A stretch of DNA of 29,422 nucleotides from the IMG/VR virus record IMGVR_UViG_3300035158_000255, positions 1 through 29,422 of that record; one strand, written 5' to 3'. The notes beneath the pieces were generated by a model, which was not told the DNA's origin, did not search any database, and saw only the letters and a list, made by a program, of their open reading frames with translations. A program made the translations under genes and the position numbers. Shown in pieces: positions 17,980-29,422 of this stretch. Every line of letters starts with the position of its first letter. The first letter of the stretch is position 1. Source of the DNA: a virus.

Positions 17980-18014
17980 CCCCTCCGGGGGGAGGGGGCG
18001 CAAAGCCCCCTCCC
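17980..18014 (-). promoter_or_regulatory. Overlapping hairpins between capsid and adaptor genes, one masking the ribosome-binding site
   Basis: In the 55-base gap after the capsid gene, the minus-strand RNA can form hairpin A: a perfect 10-base-pair stem (arms 18005-18014 and 17990-17999) with a 5-base loop. It can instead form hairpin B: a perfect 7-base-pair stem (arms 17991-17997 and 17980-17986) with loop CCCC. Arm 17991-17997 is used by both, so the folds exclude each other. Hairpin B buries GGAGGGG, the ribosome-binding site of adaptor paralogue 1. There is no U tract, so this is not an ordinary terminator. Confidence 0.7.
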
Positions 18015-20084: not shown

Positions 20085-20948
20085 TTATTTCTCCGCAACA
20101 GGTATCCCGAGTGTGGCCGCATCCCGCTGTTGTCTATCAAGCTCATCAATGCGGGCAAAGTGTGCATCCATCTCTTTTTCCTGTGCGGTTCGTTTGTCAG
20201 GTGGTCGTGTTTGTCCTGCCGTCGGAGCAATGGTCGGCTTGGAGGCTTTGGCGACCTGACGAGACACGGTTTCGACACCCTCTTTCTTGGCCTCCTGCAC
20301 CAGATTGGACTCCCGCTTGTCTCGGTTTTCGAGATCGAGAATCATCTTGTAGCGCAGTCTGCCGGGCTGAGAGTATTCACGCACCTTGGCGATGACATCC
20401 TCGCGGGTCAGTTCGGGATATGCTTCCATAGCTTCCTGAATCTGCCGCTCGGATTCCTCCTGCTGCTTGATGCGCTGAAAGTCCTGACGGGCATCCTCAA
20501 GGTTTTCCCGCCGCTCGATCTTCCGCCGGTACTGATAACTGTTCGTACCGGGGGTCATCGCTTCCAACGGGTCGTACCATTCGGGAACACCCTGCTGTCG
20601 GGGCTGGTCCTGTTGCGCCATCCGTGCGCTCTCAACCGTCATGTTCATCATGTTCTTCACGGTCGCCAGTTCTCTCTCAAGGGCAGACATCTGCGACTTG
20701 AAAGACTGGTTCTCCGTCGCCAACTTATCTTTCTCCGACTGCAATTTACGATAGACCTCATTCGGGTCTTCTGCGGGCTGCTCTACTTCGGCTTCCTCGG
20801 GAACTTGACCGCCCTCGTCAGTGGTCCCCTGCTCAGTCGGCTCATCCTGTGAAGGCTCGTCAAGCTCGATACGGGTATCGCCCGAGGTATCACCCTGATC
20901 GAGGCTGACCAGTTGCTCCGCATAATCAGCTTCCTTTTCCTTCGCCAT
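20085..20948 (-). CDS. Scaffolding protein candidate (287 aa)
   Basis: A highly charged, helix-rich 287-residue protein. Residues ~15-65 are very acidic and low in complexity (EPSQDEPTEQGTTDEGGQVP). Residues ~66-100 form a coiled coil (YRKLQSEKDKLATENQSFKS), and the rest is charged helices with a basic stretch (LENRDKRESNLVQEAKKEG) and a closing helix. This acidic-coiled-coil-basic layout and position between portal and capsid genes are typical of internal scaffolds that guide capsid assembly and leave before DNA entry. No protease motif was seen. The start shares its A with the portal stop (TAATG). Confidence 0.75.
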   Translation of the reverse strand: MAKEKEADYAEQLVSLDQGDTSGDTRIELDEPSQDEPTEQGTTDEGGQVPEEAEVEQPAEDPNEVYRKLQSEKDKLATENQSFKSQMSALERELATVKNMMNMTVESARMAQQDQPRQQGVPEWYDPLEAMTPGTNSYQYRRKIERRENLEDARQDFQRIKQQEESERQIQEAMEAYPELTREDVIAKVREYSQPGRLRYKMILDLENRDKRESNLVQEAKKEGVETVSRQVAKASKPTIAPTAGQTRPPDKRTAQEKEMDAHFARIDELDRQQRDAATLGIPVAEK

Positions 20949-22924
20949 TACTTCTCCTCCTGTTTTTGCTGAATCTTCGATTTTCGATTGGACTCAGCGT
21001 TTTTAATACTATCGGTCATCTTCTGTCTGGTAACCTGTAGCTGGGCACGGGTCTTGTATTCCTCACCCTTCATCGCCGCCTTGTGAGCGGCCACGTCACG
21101 GTCGATGCGGGCATGACGGATCTCGTTCTCCTGCATCTTGATGACCTGCTCCTGCCGCTTAGCAACGGATTGGGTCTGCTCTACCTGCGCCCGCAACTGG
21201 TCCCTCTCGCCCAGTCGCTTGATCAATCCCTCCTTGTCTTTAATGTACGGATTCTGACGGATTAATGTCTCCCTGTCCATCGCCCCGACATTGGCCATCT
21301 CCAGGAAGTGCTGAAAAATAGCCATCGGGTTTTCATCCATCGTGCTGCCGGGAACGACACGAACTGCATACCGCCCGATAGTCACATCCTGCAACATCTC
21401 ATTGGCATAGTTGCCCAGAATGGACAGGTATTGTTTCTGGTCGTCAGTTAAATGCGGGTCGCTCATCTCTGTATCAATGACCCGGCTCAGCTTCTCCGGT
21501 GTCCAACTCGACGGCACCATCTCCAGGGCAACACTTGCCATCTTATTCAGTGCAGGCTCAAGGGACGTTTCCACATAGTCCCGAATCCTCGTGTCGCTAT
21601 ATCTCTTGTAGGCAAGCGTCTGCCCCAGCGTCCTCGGCGCACCCTCGGTGCTACCCAGATCGGGGGCGAACCGCCCCAGAGTGTACTCCATATTGGCCGC
21701 ATCCATCTCGATGGTCTTGGCCAGGGTCGCCACAGGGGTTGCCACATTGGGCGTTTCCGTCCGCGGTGCCCCCCCGTCATACTGTGGGAAATAAGGCAGT
21801 AACGCTCCCGGTAGGGAAGCGTGATCCGCCCAGTAGTCCCTGTCAATAGAGTTGTCGGGGTAAATAATTCTCGGATTGGCCGAGGTGGAGACGATGTGCA
21901 ACAGGACGGCCCATCTCTTGTTAATTGAGATTTGCTGGTCTTTCGACCTGTGAATGTCCCCGAGGCTACCGGGATTACCCGTGTGCCTGTGAACAATCGG
22001 GGAAAAGGGGTACTGTGAAATGGGCAACACATCGTCATACAAAAACTCATTGCCGACACAGCATATTCGCTTTATTCGGGGTTTGCGAACAGTTGTCTCA
22101 AGATGGTACCCGCTGGCAATATTTCTCTTGTCGTCGTCAGAAAGATGCTCAACCTCCTTCGGCTGCAATCCCTGTACAGTGGGGGTTAATACATGATAGT
22201 TTACAATTTCTTTCGTATATCTTTCCCGAAAGCACACCTTCGGGGTGTTCGTCTCAATATCTCCGTGAAGTTTCTGCCCCTCCCCGGCGTAGCGGCTCGT
22301 CTTACGGGAAGTGCCATAATCGACATCCACGCCCGATTGGGACTCAATGGCGTGCCAGTATTGTTTGTCGGAGAGGAACCGCTTGGCCTGGTCCACGGTC
22401 ATGATCTTTTCAAACCCGATATTGTCCGCGTCCTCCCAATCCCTACGGGTAGTATCCCACGGGACCAGTATCTCCTGCGGGTGGCGGATCACCTCAATGA
22501 CTATCTCGCCCTGTCCGTAATCAGCCAACGGATCGAACCGAACCATCAAACACCCACGCCCACAGACAAGTGATGCCTCCACCGCATCACGAGCCGCCGT
22601 CCTTAAATCTGAATACCGGGCGATATACTGGAGGGCCATCTTGCGGACGGTCGCCTGATATGTATTCGCACCCCACCCCGTCGGGATGACATCCCAGGCA
22701 GGGCTGCGGGCCATGATGGAGCCGATCTTGTTCTCGATGATAGGGGATGTGCGGTCGATCTTGTACGGGTACTGTCCTCGCTGTTTGAGTTTTTCGGCCT
22801 GCTCGGTGGTCCAATGGATGCCATAATAAAACTCCCAATTATCCCATGCTTCCTCCCGCCAATCGGAGGAATCAGACCTGATGTCCTCAAACAGCTGCCT
22901 CGTCTCGTAAGCGATTCGGCTCAC
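20948..22924 (-). CDS. Portal protein, P22-like (658 aa)
   Basis: The dodecameric portal through which DNA enters and leaves the head. Evidence: place directly after the large terminase, length 658 (P22 gp1 is 725), and the family-like N-terminal part with WEFYYGIHWTTEQAEKLKQR, IENKIGSIMARSPAWDVIPT and AARDAVEASLVCGRGCLMVR. Further on come LPISQYPFSPIVHRHTGNPG (a conserved region in P22-type portals) and LGRFAPDLGSTEGAPRTLGQ. The C-terminal ~90 residues are a long charged coiled coil (QVEQTQSVAKRQEQVIKMQE), which would form the barrel. Start is GTG at 22924, with AGGTGA five bases upstream, overlapping the region of the terminase stop. Confidence 0.9.
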   Translation of the reverse strand: MSRIAYETRQLFEDIRSDSSDWREEAWDNWEFYYGIHWTTEQAEKLKQRGQYPYKIDRTSPIIENKIGSIMARSPAWDVIPTGWGANTYQATVRKMALQYIARYSDLRTAARDAVEASLVCGRGCLMVRFDPLADYGQGEIVIEVIRHPQEILVPWDTTRRDWEDADNIGFEKIMTVDQAKRFLSDKQYWHAIESQSGVDVDYGTSRKTSRYAGEGQKLHGDIETNTPKVCFRERYTKEIVNYHVLTPTVQGLQPKEVEHLSDDDKRNIASGYHLETTVRKPRIKRICCVGNEFLYDDVLPISQYPFSPIVHRHTGNPGSLGDIHRSKDQQISINKRWAVLLHIVSTSANPRIIYPDNSIDRDYWADHASLPGALLPYFPQYDGGAPRTETPNVATPVATLAKTIEMDAANMEYTLGRFAPDLGSTEGAPRTLGQTLAYKRYSDTRIRDYVETSLEPALNKMASVALEMVPSSWTPEKLSRVIDTEMSDPHLTDDQKQYLSILGNYANEMLQDVTIGRYAVRVVPGSTMDENPMAIFQHFLEMANVGAMDRETLIRQNPYIKDKEGLIKRLGERDQLRAQVEQTQSVAKRQEQVIKMQENEIRHARIDRDVAAHKAAMKGEEYKTRAQLQVTRQKMTDSIKNAESNRKSKIQQKQEEK

Positions 22925-22932
22925 ACGATCAC

Positions 22933-24540
22933 CTATCTCGTAAGTATATCGTCAAAACTGTGTGTGGAATTGCCCCAGTATCTTACCCGGTCGGCGTAAT
23001 ACTCATCGATCTCGGGGGTCTTAGACGGCGTGGGTGCCCGCCGAGAGATCGCAAACGCCTTGTGCAAAGCATCCAGGGCATCCAACTCTTTCGATTTGTC
23101 CCTGCGGTAATCTATCATCGGGCGTATCAAGTCACGGCTATGTTCGGGGGGTTTGACATGAAAAGTCTCTGACTTGATACGGTCGTAATAACTTTCGATT
23201 CGATCTTCTTTCTTGCCCGTTTCTTCCTTGATGCGGGCCACTCTGAGTCTGCGGCCCTCCTTCTTCTGCCGCTCCTCAAACCAGCCCCCCGGCCCGTAGA
23301 TTAAATACTGGAACGAGTTTTGTTCAACGGAAAACTCCGGCCCGTTATATTTCTTGTCTATCTCAAAAAACGAGTCCATGATCTGACCGGGATCATAGTG
23401 GCCGACACTTGTTTCCAATAGCCACGTATGATTATCCTGGTCGGTGCCGACGACCATAAACGCCGTTTTGCTCCCCGTGCGTCGGGAACGGCCAGTGGCA
23501 AGATCCACGCCCACAGAAACATTGAGTATCCGTTCCCTCTTGTCGCCCACCCAATCGGGGTGATCTTCGCACTCGGATAGTATAAGTTTGTGGTGCTTGC
23601 CGTCGTACTCGTATTCGCCCGCGTAGTTTTTTATCCATTCCCTGCGGAACACCGCCGTTTCTTTAGGGGTGACGGTACACAGGTACTCCATCGCCCACCC
23701 CTCAAAATCATAAATCTCCTCAAACTCCTGCTTCTTCTTCATTAGGAGTTCACGAGGATGCTTCTCAGGCCAGAGAAGCGGGCCGTCCTCGGAGCCGATA
23801 GTGGTGAACGCACCCCATTTCAAAGAACGCCACGTCGTAAGACGTTCCAACATCAGCCCCAAACAGTCCTCATGGCTCGGGGTAAACAGATAAATCATTT
23901 GCCCGTGCTGGTCATCAACCGCCTGCGCTACTGCCCGAAACCACAGGTCTTTCGCTTTGCGCCTGATTTCGGGCGTGGTGACATCTCGCTCGCCCTCAAT
24001 ATCATCCCCAATAACTAAATCTGGGCGGTACTGCCAGTGTCCAGTTCCACGGATTCCCTGTTTCAGCCCAACGGAGATAACTCTTATACCGCCCGCTGAT
24101 GTCACAATCTCGTCCTGCCGCCATTTGCCGTACTCATCCTTGGTCAGTTTAACATCTTGGGGGCCGAAATACTTTTTAATGACCTTATTGCTCTCCAGCT
24201 CGTGTTTGATCTTCTCCAGTTTCTCCTTCGCCATCGTGTTGCTCTGGCTGATGATGATGATGTAATTTTTTCGGCGAAAGAGAATGTTCCACAGGCAATA
24301 CACGATACCAAGAGTGGTCTTGGCAAACCCTCGGGGGCAGCGAAGCGACACCTGGCGTTCCGTTCGGAACCAGCCGGAGGAGTCCAGCAGCATCTCCCGA
24401 TAGATCTCCTCGTGGAACTTCGGCACCCCGTAGTTCTTGTACTGGATGTAATTGGGGAGTACCTGTTTGGAAAATAAAACAATGTCAGAGAGCCACTTTT
24501 TCTTGCGTTCTTTTATCCTGTCGGATGTCACGGTAGCCAT
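22933..24540 (-). CDS. terL: Terminase large subunit (535 aa)
   Basis: The ATP-driven motor and nuclease that packages DNA into the head. The ATPase domain has Walker A CPRGFAKTT at residues 68-76 and Walker B DLVIGDDIE at 174-182, where the usual DE pair is DD. LFTPSHED at ~219-225 fits the coupling (motif III) region. The C-terminal RNase H-like nuclease shows VGVDLATG (Asp346), FSVEQN (Glu406) and LDALDAL (Asp487/Asp490) as likely metal ligands. Length 535 is normal. It lies 3 bases after a small basic protein and 8 bases before the portal. The full set of motifs suggests an active enzyme; the packaging type (headful or cos) cannot be told by eye. Confidence 0.95.
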   Translation of the reverse strand: MATVTSDRIKERKKKWLSDIVLFSKQVLPNYIQYKNYGVPKFHEEIYREMLLDSSGWFRTERQVSLRCPRGFAKTTLGIVYCLWNILFRRKNYIIIISQSNTMAKEKLEKIKHELESNKVIKKYFGPQDVKLTKDEYGKWRQDEIVTSAGGIRVISVGLKQGIRGTGHWQYRPDLVIGDDIEGERDVTTPEIRRKAKDLWFRAVAQAVDDQHGQMIYLFTPSHEDCLGLMLERLTTWRSLKWGAFTTIGSEDGPLLWPEKHPRELLMKKKQEFEEIYDFEGWAMEYLCTVTPKETAVFRREWIKNYAGEYEYDGKHHKLILSECEDHPDWVGDKRERILNVSVGVDLATGRSRRTGSKTAFMVVGTDQDNHTWLLETSVGHYDPGQIMDSFFEIDKKYNGPEFSVEQNSFQYLIYGPGGWFEERQKKEGRRLRVARIKEETGKKEDRIESYYDRIKSETFHVKPPEHSRDLIRPMIDYRRDKSKELDALDALHKAFAISRRAPTPSKTPEIDEYYADRVRYWGNSTHSFDDILTR

Positions 24541-24751: not shown

Positions 24752-24904
24752 TCACCCCCTGTCAGGCCGTTTCTTCTTGAACGATTTCCCAGTCACATAC
24801 GACTGACCCGTGCTTTCCTGACAGATGCGTATGGCCTTGGTCTTGTCGTATCCCTTGGCAACCAGCTTCTGTACGCACCTGGCCACCTTCGTTCCCTCGG
24901 GCAT
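24752..24904 (-). CDS. Conserved-looking microprotein (50 aa) in the packaging module
   Basis: A 50-residue protein beginning MPEGTKVARCVQKLVAKGYD and containing AIRICQESTGQSYVTGKSFK. The pattern KV.RCV.KL...G....AI.ICQ.STGQSY.TGK is one I recall from small uncharacterised proteins of phages and viral metagenomes, though I cannot verify this here. It has two cysteines and a basic C-terminus. The start shares its A with the stop of the candidate small terminase (TAATG). A role in packaging is suggested only by its neighbours. Confidence 0.65.
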   Translation of the reverse strand: MPEGTKVARCVQKLVAKGYDKTKAIRICQESTGQSYVTGKSFKKKRPDRG

Positions 24905-25815
24905 TACTTCCCCCCATCAGGGGTGGCTCCCAGGTCGTCATCGTCATCGAGTAGATCATTTTCCCTGTCATTCCCGCCTATAGGTTCGGCAGTATCTCCG
25001 TCATCAACTTGACCAGCGCCTGCCCCAGCAGAATTATCTCCCGCATCTGTTTCCCCCCTCAAGCCTTTCTGTCTCTCTTGTTCAATGGCACCCACTTCAT
25101 CGTCATCGAGGTCGTCAGGGCGCACACCACTCAAGTCCCCTCCAACATTCTTGCGCAGTTTCATTAACTCATTCAAACCCTTCAGCCGGGCCACCCCATC
25201 CTTGAGGTCGATCTGACGATAGGCGTTCAGCCCCTCCTCCATGAGCCACTTGTCATTGACATCTGCCGCAGGATCACCCATGTATTTTGCTATCTCCCTT
25301 TTAACGTGAGGTCTTTGAAGGACATTGGAGGCATAGCGTTGCCACGTTGCGGGCTTAACATTGTGCGCCGTGCCGGGCCACACGAACCGAAATGCCTCAT
25401 ATGCGGAGGAGAACAGGTCCGCCGAGGGGTCGGTGTAGAGCTTGGTGGTGATGTAGTCGCAGAACTTCTGCTCCTTCTTGCCACATCTGGCTTTTGAGAC
25501 ATGCGGACTCCAGTGGCTCCTACCTGAAAATGTGTACCGGCTCTTGCGAGGGGTCGTATCACACACCTTGCCGGTGATCGAGAATGTCCCGATGCAGGTG
25601 CGCACATACGTGGTCGGCCCAGCCTTACCCCTGCGCAGGCACTTGATCACGTACCCGTCAGTGGTCAGAAACCAATCGCCCTCAACAGCCTCTTTCCAAT
25701 CCTCTTTGTAGTGTATACCAGCGCGATCAGCTTCTCCACGGGTATAGATAATTTCCCAGATGGTCTTCTCATTCGGGATGGGAAACTTTGCGGTCGTGAG
25801 GGGTACCTGGCGCAC
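24904..25815 (-). CDS. Candidate terminase small subunit with N-terminal extension and acidic tail (303 aa)
   Basis: A 303-residue protein just upstream of the large terminase. Residues ~115-180 (KFCDYITTKLYTDPSADLFS, then AFRFVWPGTAHNVKPATWQR and VLQRPHVKREIAKYM) follow the layout of the helix-turn-helix domain of phage small terminases, where an A-rich helix, a W/Y-containing helix and a V..EI helix alternate. These subunits recognise viral DNA and regulate the large subunit. Residues 1-110 form an extra, cysteine-containing beta-rich part. The last ~75 residues are acidic and glycine-rich (GNDRENDLLDDDDDLG). At 303 residues it is longer than most small terminases (about 150-200). Start GTG is preceded by AAGGTGA. 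Assignment rests mostly on position. Confidence 0.55.
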   Translation of the reverse strand: MRQVPLTTAKFPIPNEKTIWEIIYTRGEADRAGIHYKEDWKEAVEGDWFLTTDGYVIKCLRRGKAGPTTYVRTCIGTFSITGKVCDTTPRKSRYTFSGRSHWSPHVSKARCGKKEQKFCDYITTKLYTDPSADLFSSAYEAFRFVWPGTAHNVKPATWQRYASNVLQRPHVKREIAKYMGDPAADVNDKWLMEEGLNAYRQIDLKDGVARLKGLNELMKLRKNVGGDLSGVRPDDLDDDEVGAIEQERQKGLRGETDAGDNSAGAGAGQVDDGDTAEPIGGNDRENDLLDDDDDLGATPDGGK

Positions 25816-25870
25816 AAAGAGATCACCTTATATCAGATCCGACATATTGATTACTTAAACCACTCGATTG

Positions 25871-25893
25871 ATCGTATGTTCCCATCATACGAT
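25871..25893. repeat. Perfect inverted repeat ATCGTATG-N7-CATACGAT
   Basis: Two 8-base arms (25871-25878 and 25886-25893) are exact reverse complements, with a 7-base spacer TTCCCAT. It lies in the gene-free stretch upstream of the small-terminase candidate and overlaps a possible -10 box. Dyad length and spacing fit a repressor-type operator; an RNA hairpin in the leader is the other option. Confidence 0.6.
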
Positions 25894-25980
25894 TGTATGC
25901 CCTATGGATACACGAACCCCCTGATGCCACCTCTCGTGCCTGTCCAGGGTTTGGGTTTGACAGAGCCGGGTGTCGGGGTT

Positions 25981-26000
25981 CATGTGAATCTTTTCACAAG
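25981..26000. promoter_or_regulatory. CRP/FNR-like box, left copy
   Basis: CATGTGAATCTTTTCACAAG contains TGTGA (25983-25987) and TCACA (25994-25998) separated by exactly 6 bases, the consensus of cAMP receptor protein-type sites. It shares 16 of 20 bases with the second copy at 26643-26662. It lies about 165 bases upstream of the small-terminase candidate. An identical palindrome could also serve a phage regulator. Confidence 0.6.
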
Positions 26001-26060
26001 ATGTGCGAAAATTTTTATCGAAACGGCCAGATGCGCAGTATCAACCACACCGGCCAGAGA

Positions 26061-26306
26061 TCAAGCAGCAGGATCAGGGCAATCGTCCAGCTCCTCAAGT
26101 TCCTGTCTGGCTCTTTCTTTTGTCTTTGTCGCCTTGAGTTTCTTTTCACGTTGTCTGTGCGCCTGTTCAAAACATATATCGCAGAGATTGATATAGTCGA
26201 TGTGGCCGAGCAACACCTCACACTTCACACACCGATCCGGCAACTGATGGTCAACCTGTCGCCTGGACCTCTCCGCATAGTGCAGTTCCTTTTCTTCTCT
26301 TTGCAT
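26061..26306 (-). CDS. Small zinc-ribbon protein (81 aa), first gene of the leftward operon
   Basis: An 81-residue protein with two CxxC pairs: CVKC (Cys26, Cys29) and CDIC (Cys42, Cys45), 12 residues apart, a spacing that can bind one zinc ion. The flanks are rich in charged residues, and a long basic/acidic helix follows (HRQREKKLKATKTKERARQE), ending in an acidic tail. This is like small phage zinc-finger regulators, but no specific family is recognised. AGGGAG lies a few bases before the ATG, and a -10-like TATACT is 25 bases upstream, so it is probably the first gene expressed on the leftward strand. A control region separates it from the packaging genes. Confidence 0.7.
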   Translation of the reverse strand: MQREEKELHYAERSRRQVDHQLPDRCVKCEVLLGHIDYINLCDICFEQAHRQREKKLKATKTKERARQELEELDDCPDPAA

Positions 26307-26330
26307 ATATCTTTCTCCCTGACATTGTTA

Positions 26331-26359
26331 AGTATACTAAAAAAAATAAGAAAAAACAA
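26331..26359 (-). promoter_or_regulatory. Leftward sigma70-like promoter
   Basis: On the minus strand, TATACT (26331-26336, 5/6 match to the -10 box) lies 17 bases from TTGTTT (26354-26359, 3/6 match to -35). A run of T residues fills the spacer. Transcription would start near 26324, giving a short leader with AGGGAG before the ATG at 26306. This is the most likely start point for the leftward operon. Confidence 0.5.
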
Positions 26360-26456
26360 TACAAACCACACAGGATTTTGCCCTTTATTCTCAAGTTTTT
26401 AAACTATCCCTCCTTACGGGGTAGCCAAAAACCACCCCCAAACCCTAAATTAAAAG

Positions 26457-26550
26457 AAAAACCTAGTATTTAAAACCTAGTTTTTAAGTTTTTGATCTTT
26501 AAACCCCCTTATAGGGGGATCTAAAAACCTTTTATTTAATATTAAAACCT
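26457..26550 (+). repeat. Four AAAACCT direct repeats (iteron-like)
   Basis: AAAACCT occurs at about 26457-26464, 26472-26478, 26523-26530 and 26544-26550; the first two continue as AAAACCTAG. They fall within 94 bases of AT-rich sequence. Short repeats of this kind can bind a replication initiator or regulator, but they are close to low-complexity DNA, so chance similarity is possible. Confidence 0.4.
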
Positions 26551-26642
26551 AAAAGATTAATCTTTGGTGCCGTCGGCTCGTCCGCCGAGACACATCGTAA
26601 GTGCCGATCTTGACCGTGAACGTCAACACCCGCCCTATGTCG

Positions 26643-26662
26643 CTTGTGAAAAATTTCACAAG
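26643..26662. promoter_or_regulatory. CRP/FNR-like box, right copy (perfect 20-base palindrome)
   Basis: CTTGTGAAAAATTTCACAAG has 9-base arms CTTGTGAAA and TTTCACAAG around AA, and contains TGTGA-N6-TCACA. Its centre (26652.5) lies about 75 bases upstream of the predicted transcription start of the rightward promoter, near the distance used by class I activators. A second copy is at 25981-26000. Confidence 0.65.
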
Positions 26663-26692
26663 AAAGTATTTTCATTTTTTTTAAAAAATTCC

Positions 26693-26721
26693 TTGACACT
26701 GCGGTTAGGGCAACATACATT
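26693..26721 (+). promoter_or_regulatory. Rightward sigma70 promoter with perfect -35 box
   Basis: TTGACA (26693-26698), a 17-base spacer and TACATT (26716-26721, 4/6 of TATAAT) form a well-spaced promoter. An A/T tract just upstream may act as UP element. The predicted start (~26728) is only 2-3 bases from the first ATG (26731), so the message would be leaderless or nearly so. Confidence 0.7.
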
Positions 26722-26730
26722 GTCATTACC

Positions 26731-26907
26731 ATGACCGAAGTGAAACAATGTCCGATGTGTCACAGGGTGTTCAGCCAGCCGACGGAGGTGGTCTATCTGG
26801 ACAATGTGCTGATGCACTGCCCACACTGCGGGTACAAACAATACATCACCAAAGACAATCACACGGTAGAGGCGGACGATGGAACTCCCGGAACTCCCAA
26901 GGACTGA
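26731..26907 (+). CDS. Small zinc-ribbon protein (58 aa), first gene of the rightward operon
   Basis: A 58-residue protein beginning MTEVKQCPMCHRVFSQPTEV. Two knuckles, CPMC (Cys7, Cys10) and CPHCG (Cys30, Cys33), are 19 residues apart and form a classic four-cysteine zinc ribbon; the tail is acidic (VEADDGTPGTPKD). Such small ribbons act in transcription, DNA binding or protein contacts; the exact role is unknown. The ATG has no convincing ribosome-binding site and lies almost at the predicted transcription start. No other start is possible without losing Cys7. The last 29 bases overlap the helicase gene in another frame. Confidence 0.7.
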   Translation: MTEVKQCPMCHRVFSQPTEVVYLDNVLMHCPHCGYKQYITKDNHTVEADDGTPGTPKD

Positions 26908-28195
26908 GGACAACGAGGCGAGTTTGCTGGCGGTGCTGATGCACGTGCCCGAGTTGGTCGATGACTGCGCCGAGATCGCATCCAGGGAGGATTTTTACTC
27001 GGCCGACAACGCCATCGTGTTCGATGCTATCTGCCAGCTCAGGGCCAAGAACAGGCCCACCGACATGTCACATGTCGCCAACCACCTGCAGTACAAAGGC
27101 AAGATCAAGAAGATTGGGGGGCGGGTTTATCTCGCCCAGATCCTCGACACCCCCGCCTCCAAGTCAAGTGCCATCGGCTATGCGACCAACATCAGGGACA
27201 AGGCCATCCTGCGGCAGATCATCTACTCCTGCCACAAAATCGCTCAGCAAGCCGCTGACAACCCGCCCGATGTGAGCAAGATGCTCGATGCGGCGGAAAC
27301 CGAGATTATGGACATACGGCGGTTCAAGAAGGGCGGCAGCTTTGTCAAGATCGAGGAGGCGGTCATGGAGGTGTGGAAGGATCTGGAGAACAAGGAGGCG
27401 ACCGGGAACTGGGCATCGGGCATCCCCTCGGGATACAGCCGGCTGGATGCGATGACCACGGGGTTCAAGAAGGGTGAGTTCATCATATTGGCCGGTCGAC
27501 CCAGCTCGGGGAAGACCTCAATGGCCATGGATTTTGCGCGCCACGCCGCCGTCGAGAAACGATTTCGGGTGGCGTTCTTTAGTCTGGAGATGTCCAACGA
27601 ACAGCTCTCCCATCGACTGTTAGCGGCCCATTGGGGGGTCGACGCACACAGGCTGCGCAGTGGGAAACTGCAACAGGAGGATTGGGCTAAGATGTCGGGG
27701 GCGATGTCGTTCATCAACGGAGTACCCCTGTGGATACTGGATGTGCCGCGGCTCTCACTGGCCGAGATCAGGGCGAAGGCCCGACGGGAAAAGACCGACC
27801 ACCAGACCGACATGATCATCATCGACTACCTGGGCCTGATCAACCCGCCGCACAAGAAGTCGAGAGAACAAGAGGTGGCGGCAATCAGCGCAGAACTCAA
27901 AGGACTGGCTCGGGAATTGGATGTGCCCGTCATCGCCCTGTCGCAGATGTCACGGGCGGCGGAGAAACGGGAAGACACCAGGCCGAGGTTATCGGACCTG
28001 CGGGACAGCGGGGCACTGGAGCAGGATGCGGACATGGTTCTGTTCGTGTACCGGCCAGAAATGTACTCCAAGGAGCAGGATGCCGACAGGGGCCGAACGG
28101 AATTGATACTGGCCAAACAGCGCAACGGTCCCACGGGTACAGTGGAGTTGCGGTTTTTCCGTGAAAGTATGCTGTTTCGGGAAGGAGGGTACTGA
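26879..28195 (+). CDS. dnaB: Replicative DNA helicase, DnaB family (438 aa)
   Basis: The ring helicase that unwinds DNA at the phage fork. The N-terminal domain (residues ~10-115) has the DnaB-N pattern, for example NEASLLAVLMHVPELVDDCA and KKIGGRVYLAQILDTP. A linker helix leads to the RecA-like motor: Walker A GRPSSGKTS (206-214), the FFSLEMSNEQL region, Walker B DMIIIDYLGL (311-320), then ALSQMSR and RPRLSDLRDSGALEQDADMV, which holds the conserved arginine and sensor residues. Length 438 is normal. The start overlaps the zinc-ribbon gene by 29 bases, and the stop overlaps the next start (TGATG). No primase or helicase loader is present in the window. Confidence 0.95.
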   Translation: MELPELPRTEDNEASLLAVLMHVPELVDDCAEIASREDFYSADNAIVFDAICQLRAKNRPTDMSHVANHLQYKGKIKKIGGRVYLAQILDTPASKSSAIGYATNIRDKAILRQIIYSCHKIAQQAADNPPDVSKMLDAAETEIMDIRRFKKGGSFVKIEEAVMEVWKDLENKEATGNWASGIPSGYSRLDAMTTGFKKGEFIILAGRPSSGKTSMAMDFARHAAVEKRFRVAFFSLEMSNEQLSHRLLAAHWGVDAHRLRSGKLQQEDWAKMSGAMSFINGVPLWILDVPRLSLAEIRAKARREKTDHQTDMIIIDYLGLINPPHKKSREQEVAAISAELKGLARELDVPVIALSQMSRAAEKREDTRPRLSDLRDSGALEQDADMVLFVYRPEMYSKEQDADRGRTELILAKQRNGPTGTVELRFFRESMLFREGGY

Positions 28196-28427: not shown

Positions 28428-28703
28428 ATGAAATTCAAGATCGATTGGCTCAATGTGTTCTTTGCGGCCTTTATGGCCGTGGTGATGTTCCTGTTGGTGA
28501 TGAATTTCGTACACACCCACCGCATGGGCGGGCTTTCTCAAGAGAATGAAATACTCACCGATACGGTCATACTGCAATCGGCGATGATCAAAGATATGTA
28601 CGAAACAATGCACGCCGCGTGGGATTTTGAATACTCGGGGCGCACGCAAGGGATGGCCAAACAATGGTATGATACCTGGGGGGACGAAACAAGGGAGGAA
28701 TAG
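28428..28703 (+). CDS. Small membrane-anchored protein (91 aa)
   Basis: A 91-residue protein with a short basic N-terminus (MKFKIDW), one hydrophobic helix at residues ~8-27 (LNVFFAAFMAVVMFLLVMNF), then a polar domain with a helix (QENEILTDTVILQSAMIKDM) and an acidic end. The start at 28428 is fixed by GAGGAG 7 bases upstream; the frame is open further upstream but crosses other genes. No family recognised. The N-terminal anchor with soluble domain could place a replication or exclusion factor at the inner membrane, but this is inference. Confidence 0.65.
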   Translation: MKFKIDWLNVFFAAFMAVVMFLLVMNFVHTHRMGGLSQENEILTDTVILQSAMIKDMYETMHAAWDFEYSGRTQGMAKQWYDTWGDETREE

Positions 28704-28746
28704 GGGCGATTATAGCCTCCAAAGAAGGAGAAAAGAAGGGGGAATA

Positions 28747-29118
28747 ATGACCATCAATAAAGTTATTCTCATTGGCAATGCCGGAAAAGACCCTGAGACG
28801 ATGACCTTTTCCGACGGGTCGTTCAAGATACGGTTCCCGATAGCCACCCACGAGCGGTGGAGGGACAAGAACGACGAGATGCAGGAACGTACCGAGTGGC
28901 ACAACATCGTCGCCAAGGGCCAGAGGGCCGACTTCGGGCGCAAGTACATCAAGAAAGGCTCCCAGGTCTATGTCGAAGGCAAGATCCGCACCCGCTCCTA
29001 CGAGGACGAAACCAACACGACCCGCTGGATCACCGAAGTGGTGTGCCGTGAACTTATCCTGTTGGGCAAAAAAGACAGCGAGAACGCCGACCCGCCCGAC
29101 AAAGAACTGCCGTTCTAG
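28747..29118 (+). CDS. ssb: Single-stranded DNA-binding protein (123 aa)
   Basis: An OB-fold protein of the bacterial/phage SSB family that coats single-stranded DNA during replication. Characteristic blocks are NKVILIGNAGKDPETMTFSD at the start, RTEWHNIVAKGQRADFG (the conserved EWH..V..G) and KGSQVYVEGKIRTRSYEDE. The C-terminus is short (DSENADPPDKELPF) and ends in LPF, as in SSB tails that bind partner proteins, though with KE in place of the usual DDD. At 123 residues it lacks the long glycine-rich linker of E. coli SSB. AAGGGGGAATA before the ATG sets the start; a longer in-frame extension is not supported. Confidence 0.93.
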   Translation: MTINKVILIGNAGKDPETMTFSDGSFKIRFPIATHERWRDKNDEMQERTEWHNIVAKGQRADFGRKYIKKGSQVYVEGKIRTRSYEDETNTTRWITEVVCRELILLGKKDSENADPPDKELPF

Positions 29119-29282: not shown

Positions 29283-29307
29283 GGGTCCCCAATGGCAGAA
29301 CCCACGA

Positions 29308-29422
29308 CTGGTCTTTCTGACCAACAACTTTCATCTGCCGGCTCTAATCATTCCACAGCTCTATCAGAGACGCTGGCAGGTGGAACTGTTCTTCAAATGG
29401 ATCAAACAGCACCTGCGGATCA
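29308..29422 (+). mobile_element. IS4-family transposase fragment at the window edge
   Basis: The frame starting at 29308 reads LVFLTNNFHLPALIIPQLYQ, then RRWQVELFFKWIKQHLRI up to the window end. The second part contains the IS4-family YREK signature with exact spacing: Y, 2 residues, R, 3 residues, E, 6 residues, K. This is the C-terminal catalytic region of the DDE transposase that carries the final glutamate. Only about 38 residues are present, and the earlier catalytic part is absent to the left, where phage sequence stands instead. No terminal inverted repeat is visible. It may be a truncated insertion or an assembly join. Confidence 0.85.

Follow-up and report, generated by a model that had tools for sequence, protein, structure and literature searches.

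We found two palindromes in the control DNA of an uncultured phage that resemble operators of the redox-sensing repressor Rex. Arrays of such sites recur in many unrelated phages, cultured Enterococcus phages among them, so that some phages may respond to or perturb the redox balance of the host. Judged from their sequence, both are somewhat likely to be operators for the Rex protein of the host, which would tie phage transcription to NADH/NAD+.

Gene map and control regions

The window, i.e. the whole stretch of DNA that was analysed, comprises 29,422 bases from an IMG/VR virus record. Its leftward genes include those for a large terminase, a P22-type portal protein and a head protein, and its rightward genes those for DnaB and a single-strand DNA-binding protein (SSB). 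The features discussed here are listed below; the palindromes are labelled ROP1 and ROP2.

20948-22924, minus strand: P22-type portal protein (PF16510, 1.6e-54)
22933-24540, minus strand: large terminase subunit (phrog_38, 1.2e-62)
24904-25815, minus strand: leading gene of the leftward late block; in contig L003 a homologue (E 1e-10) stands ahead of the large terminase gene
25816-26060, no strand: gene-free gap with ROP1, flanked on both sides by leftward genes; the packaging and head genes are downstream of it
25982-25999, no strand: ROP1, ATGTGAATCTTTTCACAA, Rex-operator-like with one mismatch to TTGTGAANNNNTTCACAA; the leftward start codon at 25815 lies 167 nt downstream
26061-26306, minus strand: small CxxC...CxxC protein between both control regions, without a Pfam or PHROG match
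26307-26730, no strand: gene-free divergent AT-rich control region with ROP2 (gene map, repeats)
26644-26661, no strand: ROP2, TTGTGAAAAATTTCACAA, zero mismatches to the Rex consensus and a W4 spacer; the predicted -35 lies 31 nt downstream
26693-26721, plus strand: predicted sigma70-type promoter TTGACA-17-TACATT (10 of the 12 bases agree with the consensus) for the rightward replication genes
26731-26907, plus strand: small zinc-ribbon-like protein, first rightward gene (weak matches, below cut-off, to zf-C2H2 and Zn_Ribbon_YjdM)
26879-28195, plus strand: DnaB-type replicative helicase (PF03796, 1.3e-98)
28627-29118, plus strand: SSB (PF00436, 2e-28; the real start is possibly more downstream)

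The first gene of the leftward late block possibly encodes a small terminase, and the control region at 26307-26730 is possibly a replication origin as well. A promoter scan returned three sites versus 1.6 expected in shuffles; the start predicted for TTGACA-17-TACATT falls almost on the ATG at 26731, and no good promoter was seen near ROP1.

Some further elements were observed in the window. Between 26440 and 26560, beside the dnaB block, the DNA is AT-rich with AAAACCTAGTATTT repeats and a CCCCCTTATAGGGGG hairpin (26504-26518) and resembles a replication origin. A perfect 8-bp inverted repeat, ATCGTATG-N7-CATACGAT, at 25871-25893 between ROP1 and the leftward late genes is a candidate operator of another regulator. 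Directly 3' of the major head protein gene a strong GC-rich hairpin (GGGAGGGGGCGCAAAGCCCCCTCCC, 17990-18014) is probably a terminator or processing site. The right end of the record (29283-29422) is a fragment of an IS4-type transposase (PF01609), either a chimeric end or an insertion; its use as a host marker was dropped, as similar transposases occur across many phyla and an exact 36-base match was not found.

Position of the palindromes and expectation by chance

A scan of the window confirmed that TGTGA-N6-TCACA occurs only at 25983-25998 and 26645-26660, while 11 other places fit with one or two mismatches, a number as predicted by shuffles. The chance expectation of about 0.03 copies given in the original prediction was reproduced by a first-order model, which gives 0.035 copies for the window and 0.0004 for its 669 gene-free bases. 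The gene map likewise bore out that both copies lie in gene-free stretches (25816-26060 and 26307-26730). These had been described as two divergent control regions, which is true of the right one; the left one is not divergent, since both of its neighbours (24904-25815 and 26061-26306) are leftward. The proposed spacing of about 75 bases between the right copy and the rightward start is sound only if the predicted TTGACA-17-TACATT promoter is real.

ROP2 can be extended to the palindrome CTTGTGAAA-AA-TTTCACAAG at 26643-26662, and ROP1 and ROP2 also form an extended 22-bp repeat that is 86% complementary. That they are chance palindromes or weak hairpins in AT-rich intergenic DNA appears highly improbable to us. 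ROP2 does score as a terminator-like stem-loop, and reversed-motif palindromes in other phages are also somewhat intergenic (28%, by crude ORF calls). Another near-perfect 7-N4-7 palindrome pair, unrelated and with the common half-site GATGTGT, is present in the window, so that we give weight to the exact operator match and the location and not to repetition alone. At up to one mismatch to TTGTGAANNNNTTCACAA, however, chance would give 0.005 sites over the window and 0.0004 over its gene-free stretches, against two seen.

Similarity to Rex operators

Ravcheev et al. (2012), as quoted in PMC5317091, give TTGTGAANNNNTTCACAA as the Rex operator consensus. Against it, ROP2 has no mismatch, ROP1 has one and the next best site of the window has four. 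For Staphylococcus aureus, a gel-shift-tested Rex site reads TTGTGAAW4TTCACAA, and the Rex sites lie inside promoters or a few base pairs away (PMC2883068). The half-sites TTGTGAA and TTCACAA are likewise found four bases apart in the window, with no mismatch in ROP2 and one in ROP1. Their spacers are A/T-rich, AAAT (four of four bases A/T) in ROP2 and TCTT (three of four) in ROP1; the S. aureus form has W4. Both sites are in gene-free DNA; ROP2 precedes the predicted -35 by 31 nt and ROP1 is without a clear promoter.

Positions 7 and 12 distinguish Rex sites from CRP sites. ROP1 and ROP2 both have the A7/T12 required by Rex, whereas CRP prefers T7/A12, and each site differs from the CRP core TGTGATNNNNATCACA (TGTGAT-N4-ATCACA) by two mismatches exactly at these positions. 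An FNR reading was rejected, because no FNR core fits in the motif scan of the window: neither palindrome is among the best matches listed for TTGAT-N4-ATCAA, and every window site has at least two mismatches to it. By their bases the palindromes probably fit Rex operators better than CRP/FNR sites. The general idea of the original prediction, in which a global regulator of the host, of a metabolic or oxygen type, is read by the phage, is supported; as to the choice of CRP/FNR, the mismatches at positions 7 and 12 make Rex (NADH/NAD+) the more likely regulator.

The sites could nevertheless be read by a host protein of the CRP/FNR family, for example one of the HcpR type that binds TTGTGA-N6-TCACAA, acting as a class I activator from about 75 bases before the rightward start, a distance to the predicted start that is close to class I positions. 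The published Desulfovibrio HcpR motif, TTGTGANNNNNNTCACAA (PMC545781), fits ROP2 with no mismatch and ROP1 with one. We nevertheless consider this improbable: both copies carry A/T at positions 7/12, the opposite of the T/A of CRP, and this bias, which is left unexplained by HcpR, extends to 93 of 109 sites in the array phages described below although neither the CRP nor the HcpR motif asks for it. An FNR-type core is absent, and recurrence of the sites in Enterococcus and Aerococcus phages suits hosts that bear Rex.

Encoded regulators and relatives

Among the proteins encoded in the window we found none of the CRP/FNR type (PF00027). A Rex gene (PF06971) was absent from the window and from the other phage records searched, and this points to the host protein. 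For the zinc-ribbon proteins of the phage, which had been named as possible binders of the palindromes, we found nothing in support.

Searches for close relatives with the large terminase, the portal and late-gene queries returned one contig only (L003, 26% identity), which is without a palindrome site at up to three mismatches. A terminase profile search added 80 distant loci (25-29% identity), none with a site at zero or one mismatch, and a DNA search with the control region among known phages gave zero matches. As the collections searched held no close relative, recurrence of the operator was examined in other phages instead.

Recurrence in cultured phages

Among 50,697 phage records, full 18-mers were found in the Enterococcus phages EF1, EF5, H1 and VRE9_1 to VRE9_4 and in Aerococcus phage AVP. 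The 18-base search also matched one cyanophage structural gene, and the matched control gave zero full-length sites. The only type of matched control in these collection scans was the reversed motif AACACTTWWWWAAGTGTT, which is of equal composition and symmetry. All seven Enterococcus phages with full sites are E. faecalis/E. faecium phages. Both host genera, Enterococcus and Aerococcus, are Gram-positive fermenters that have Rex.

Six of the eight matching Enterococcus/Aerococcus records were scanned whole and showed four to six sites per genome and zero control sites. The sites are mostly clustered in sparsely coding control regions: EF1, H1 and AVP have several of them in gaps of about 500-800 bases between annotated genes, with two to three sites within a gap of about 800 bases in EF1 and H1, and the annotation of the matching region in VRE9_1, VRE9_3 and VRE9_4 consists of tiny predicted genes only. 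At one site VRE9_1 has the spacer AAAT where the others have TTTT, while the half-sites are unchanged. The EF1 control region is at 63700-64510 of record MF001358. In the Enterococcus phages the non-coding region with the sites is long and also contains many other repeats.

The same non-coding region also holds a site for a second metabolic regulator of the host. The consensus CcpA cre site TGTAAGCGCTTACA is present in four of five aligned regions (VRE9_1, L384; H1, L386; VRE9_4, L388; VRE9_3, L389), and the aligned region of EF1 has a one-base variant of it.

Recurrence in uncultured viral contigs

In 2.9 million viral contigs, TTGTGAAWWWWTTCACAA was found in at least 119 stretches versus 37 for the reversed motif, and more than one site (zero to one mismatch) was present in 22 of 103 newly fetched ROP loci versus one of 35 control loci. 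The looser pattern TTGTGAANNNNTTCACAAGA with 16 fixed bases showed no overall excess in the viral contigs (40 versus 38 for the control), which confines the signal to the W4 form, i.e. the Rex form.

Several phages contained arrays of five to 20 sites with the control absent or nearly so. Whole records held 20 sites in G003 (202 kb), 13 in G031 (176 kb) and nine each in G027 and G028, and reversed-control matches numbered at most one in any record of both lists and zero in nearly all. Among 109 TGTGA-N6-TCACA sites of the array phages, A7/T12 was present in 93 and T7/A12 in none, and the four spacer bases are about 95% A/T. This count is partly conditioned, because it was a site having both A7/T12 and a W4 spacer that led to many of the array loci. 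In most array loci TTGTGAA or TTGTTAA is the commonest half-site of near-perfect 7-N4-7 palindromes.

The clostridial Rex box has the consensus TTGTTAANNNNTTAACAA (PMC5367854). Three phage contigs carry arrays of this form, TTGTTAA-N4-TTAACAA, instead, with 24 sites in L258, ten in L244 and eight in L249; the architecture is like that of the window sites, and the form itself is absent from the window. L258 is IMGVR_UViG_3300033463_001124. L244 is IMGVR_UViG_3300028797_000878, in which we also observed repeated GAACATATGTTCG boxes resembling Gram-positive LexA sites.

The recurrence bears on a further explanation, in which the palindromes are operators or replication-initiator sites of a protein of the phage itself and only look like Rex sites. 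ROP2 lies beside dnaB in an AT-rich divergent region whose repeats and hairpin are origin-like, and the Enterococcus phage sites are in a long non-coding region rich in other repeats. Still, 14 identical fixed bases recur in phages of differing gene content, and each of the two variants matches one of the two published Rex consensus forms, which is hard to explain via unrelated phage proteins. We therefore regard this explanation as unlikely.

Possible regulation by Rex or titration of Rex

The largest array, in G003 (L242, IMGVR_UViG_3300009702_000014, 34000-51000), has about 20 Rex-type operators within 14 kb, several of them in the order terminator, operator, TTGACA promoter and small gene. 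A fixed promoter spacing suggested by G003 (30-31 or 42-43 nt before TTGACA) was not upheld across all array phages, where promoter-like hexamers are only mildly associated with the sites, and we therefore claim no spacing rule. Since TTCACA itself scores as a -35, we disregarded an excess of -35 hexamers seen at offset -7. By crude ORF calls, about 30% of array-phage sites are inside open reading frames.

The sites might be decoys that titrate host Rex: growing numbers of phage DNA copies would draw Rex off the fermentation and respiration genes of the host and shift metabolism in favour of the phage, and phage promoters need not respond. The clusters of as many as 20 operators that some phages have in a single region, the sites inside open reading frames, the merely mild promoter association and the lack of a phage Rex among the records searched are all in line with this, and for large arrays titration of Rex fits at least as well as regulation. 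For the window phage we judge it a live but much less probable alternative. There are just two sites in the window, each ahead of a main gene block, an arrangement more naturally explained by regulation; nor does titration need the order of elements seen in G003.

Under regulation by Rex, at high NAD+ Rex-NAD+ would occupy both sites, ROP2 ahead of the rightward genes for replication (zinc-ribbon protein, DnaB and SSB) and ROP1 ahead of the leftward genes for packaging and the head. Bound Rex would restrain or tune transcription of the adjoining phage genes. A rise in NADH, e.g. when electron acceptors are exhausted, would release Rex and allow expression of phage genes. We infer the presence of Rex in the host, its binding to both sites and repression as the effect. 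A simple repressor site would overlap the promoter, whereas ROP2 is placed 31 nt ahead of the predicted -35, and modulation from upstream is possible.

Relation to known systems and significance

The window sites share with Gram-positive ROPs, such as those of S. aureus adhE, ldh1 and pflB, the 18-bp palindrome TTGTGAAW4TTCACAA and a location in non-coding DNA upstream of genes. They differ from them in being located in a phage, upstream of replication and packaging genes, in that binding of Rex is a prediction, and in that ROP2 lies upstream of the predicted promoter and not over it. With CRP sites and Desulfovibrio HcpR sites they have TGTGA-N6-TCACA in common (TTGTGA-N6-TCACAA for HcpR); CRP sites prefer T7/A12, unlike the A7/T12 of the window and array phages. 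Host regulators are known to be used by phages, for example OxyR at the mom gene of phage Mu and LexA at phage promoters, and these cases are alike in that the operator of a host regulator lies in phage control DNA. We found no report of Rex operators in phages in the open-access literature searched.

We tentatively propose, at somewhat less than even confidence, that operators for host Rex, single or in arrays of up to 20 sites and in the variant that suits the host group, represent a phage strategy that is widespread and has so far not been described, serving either timing by NADH/NAD+ or the stripping of Rex, of which the window phage would be the minimal two-site case. As the sites are present in cultured Enterococcus and Aerococcus phages, the proposal lends itself to tests with purified Rex and with laboratory strains that lack rex. 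Should it hold, phages of fermenting and anaerobic hosts would sense or manipulate the NADH/NAD+ balance via the host's own repressor, and there would be a direct molecular link from redox state to phage development.
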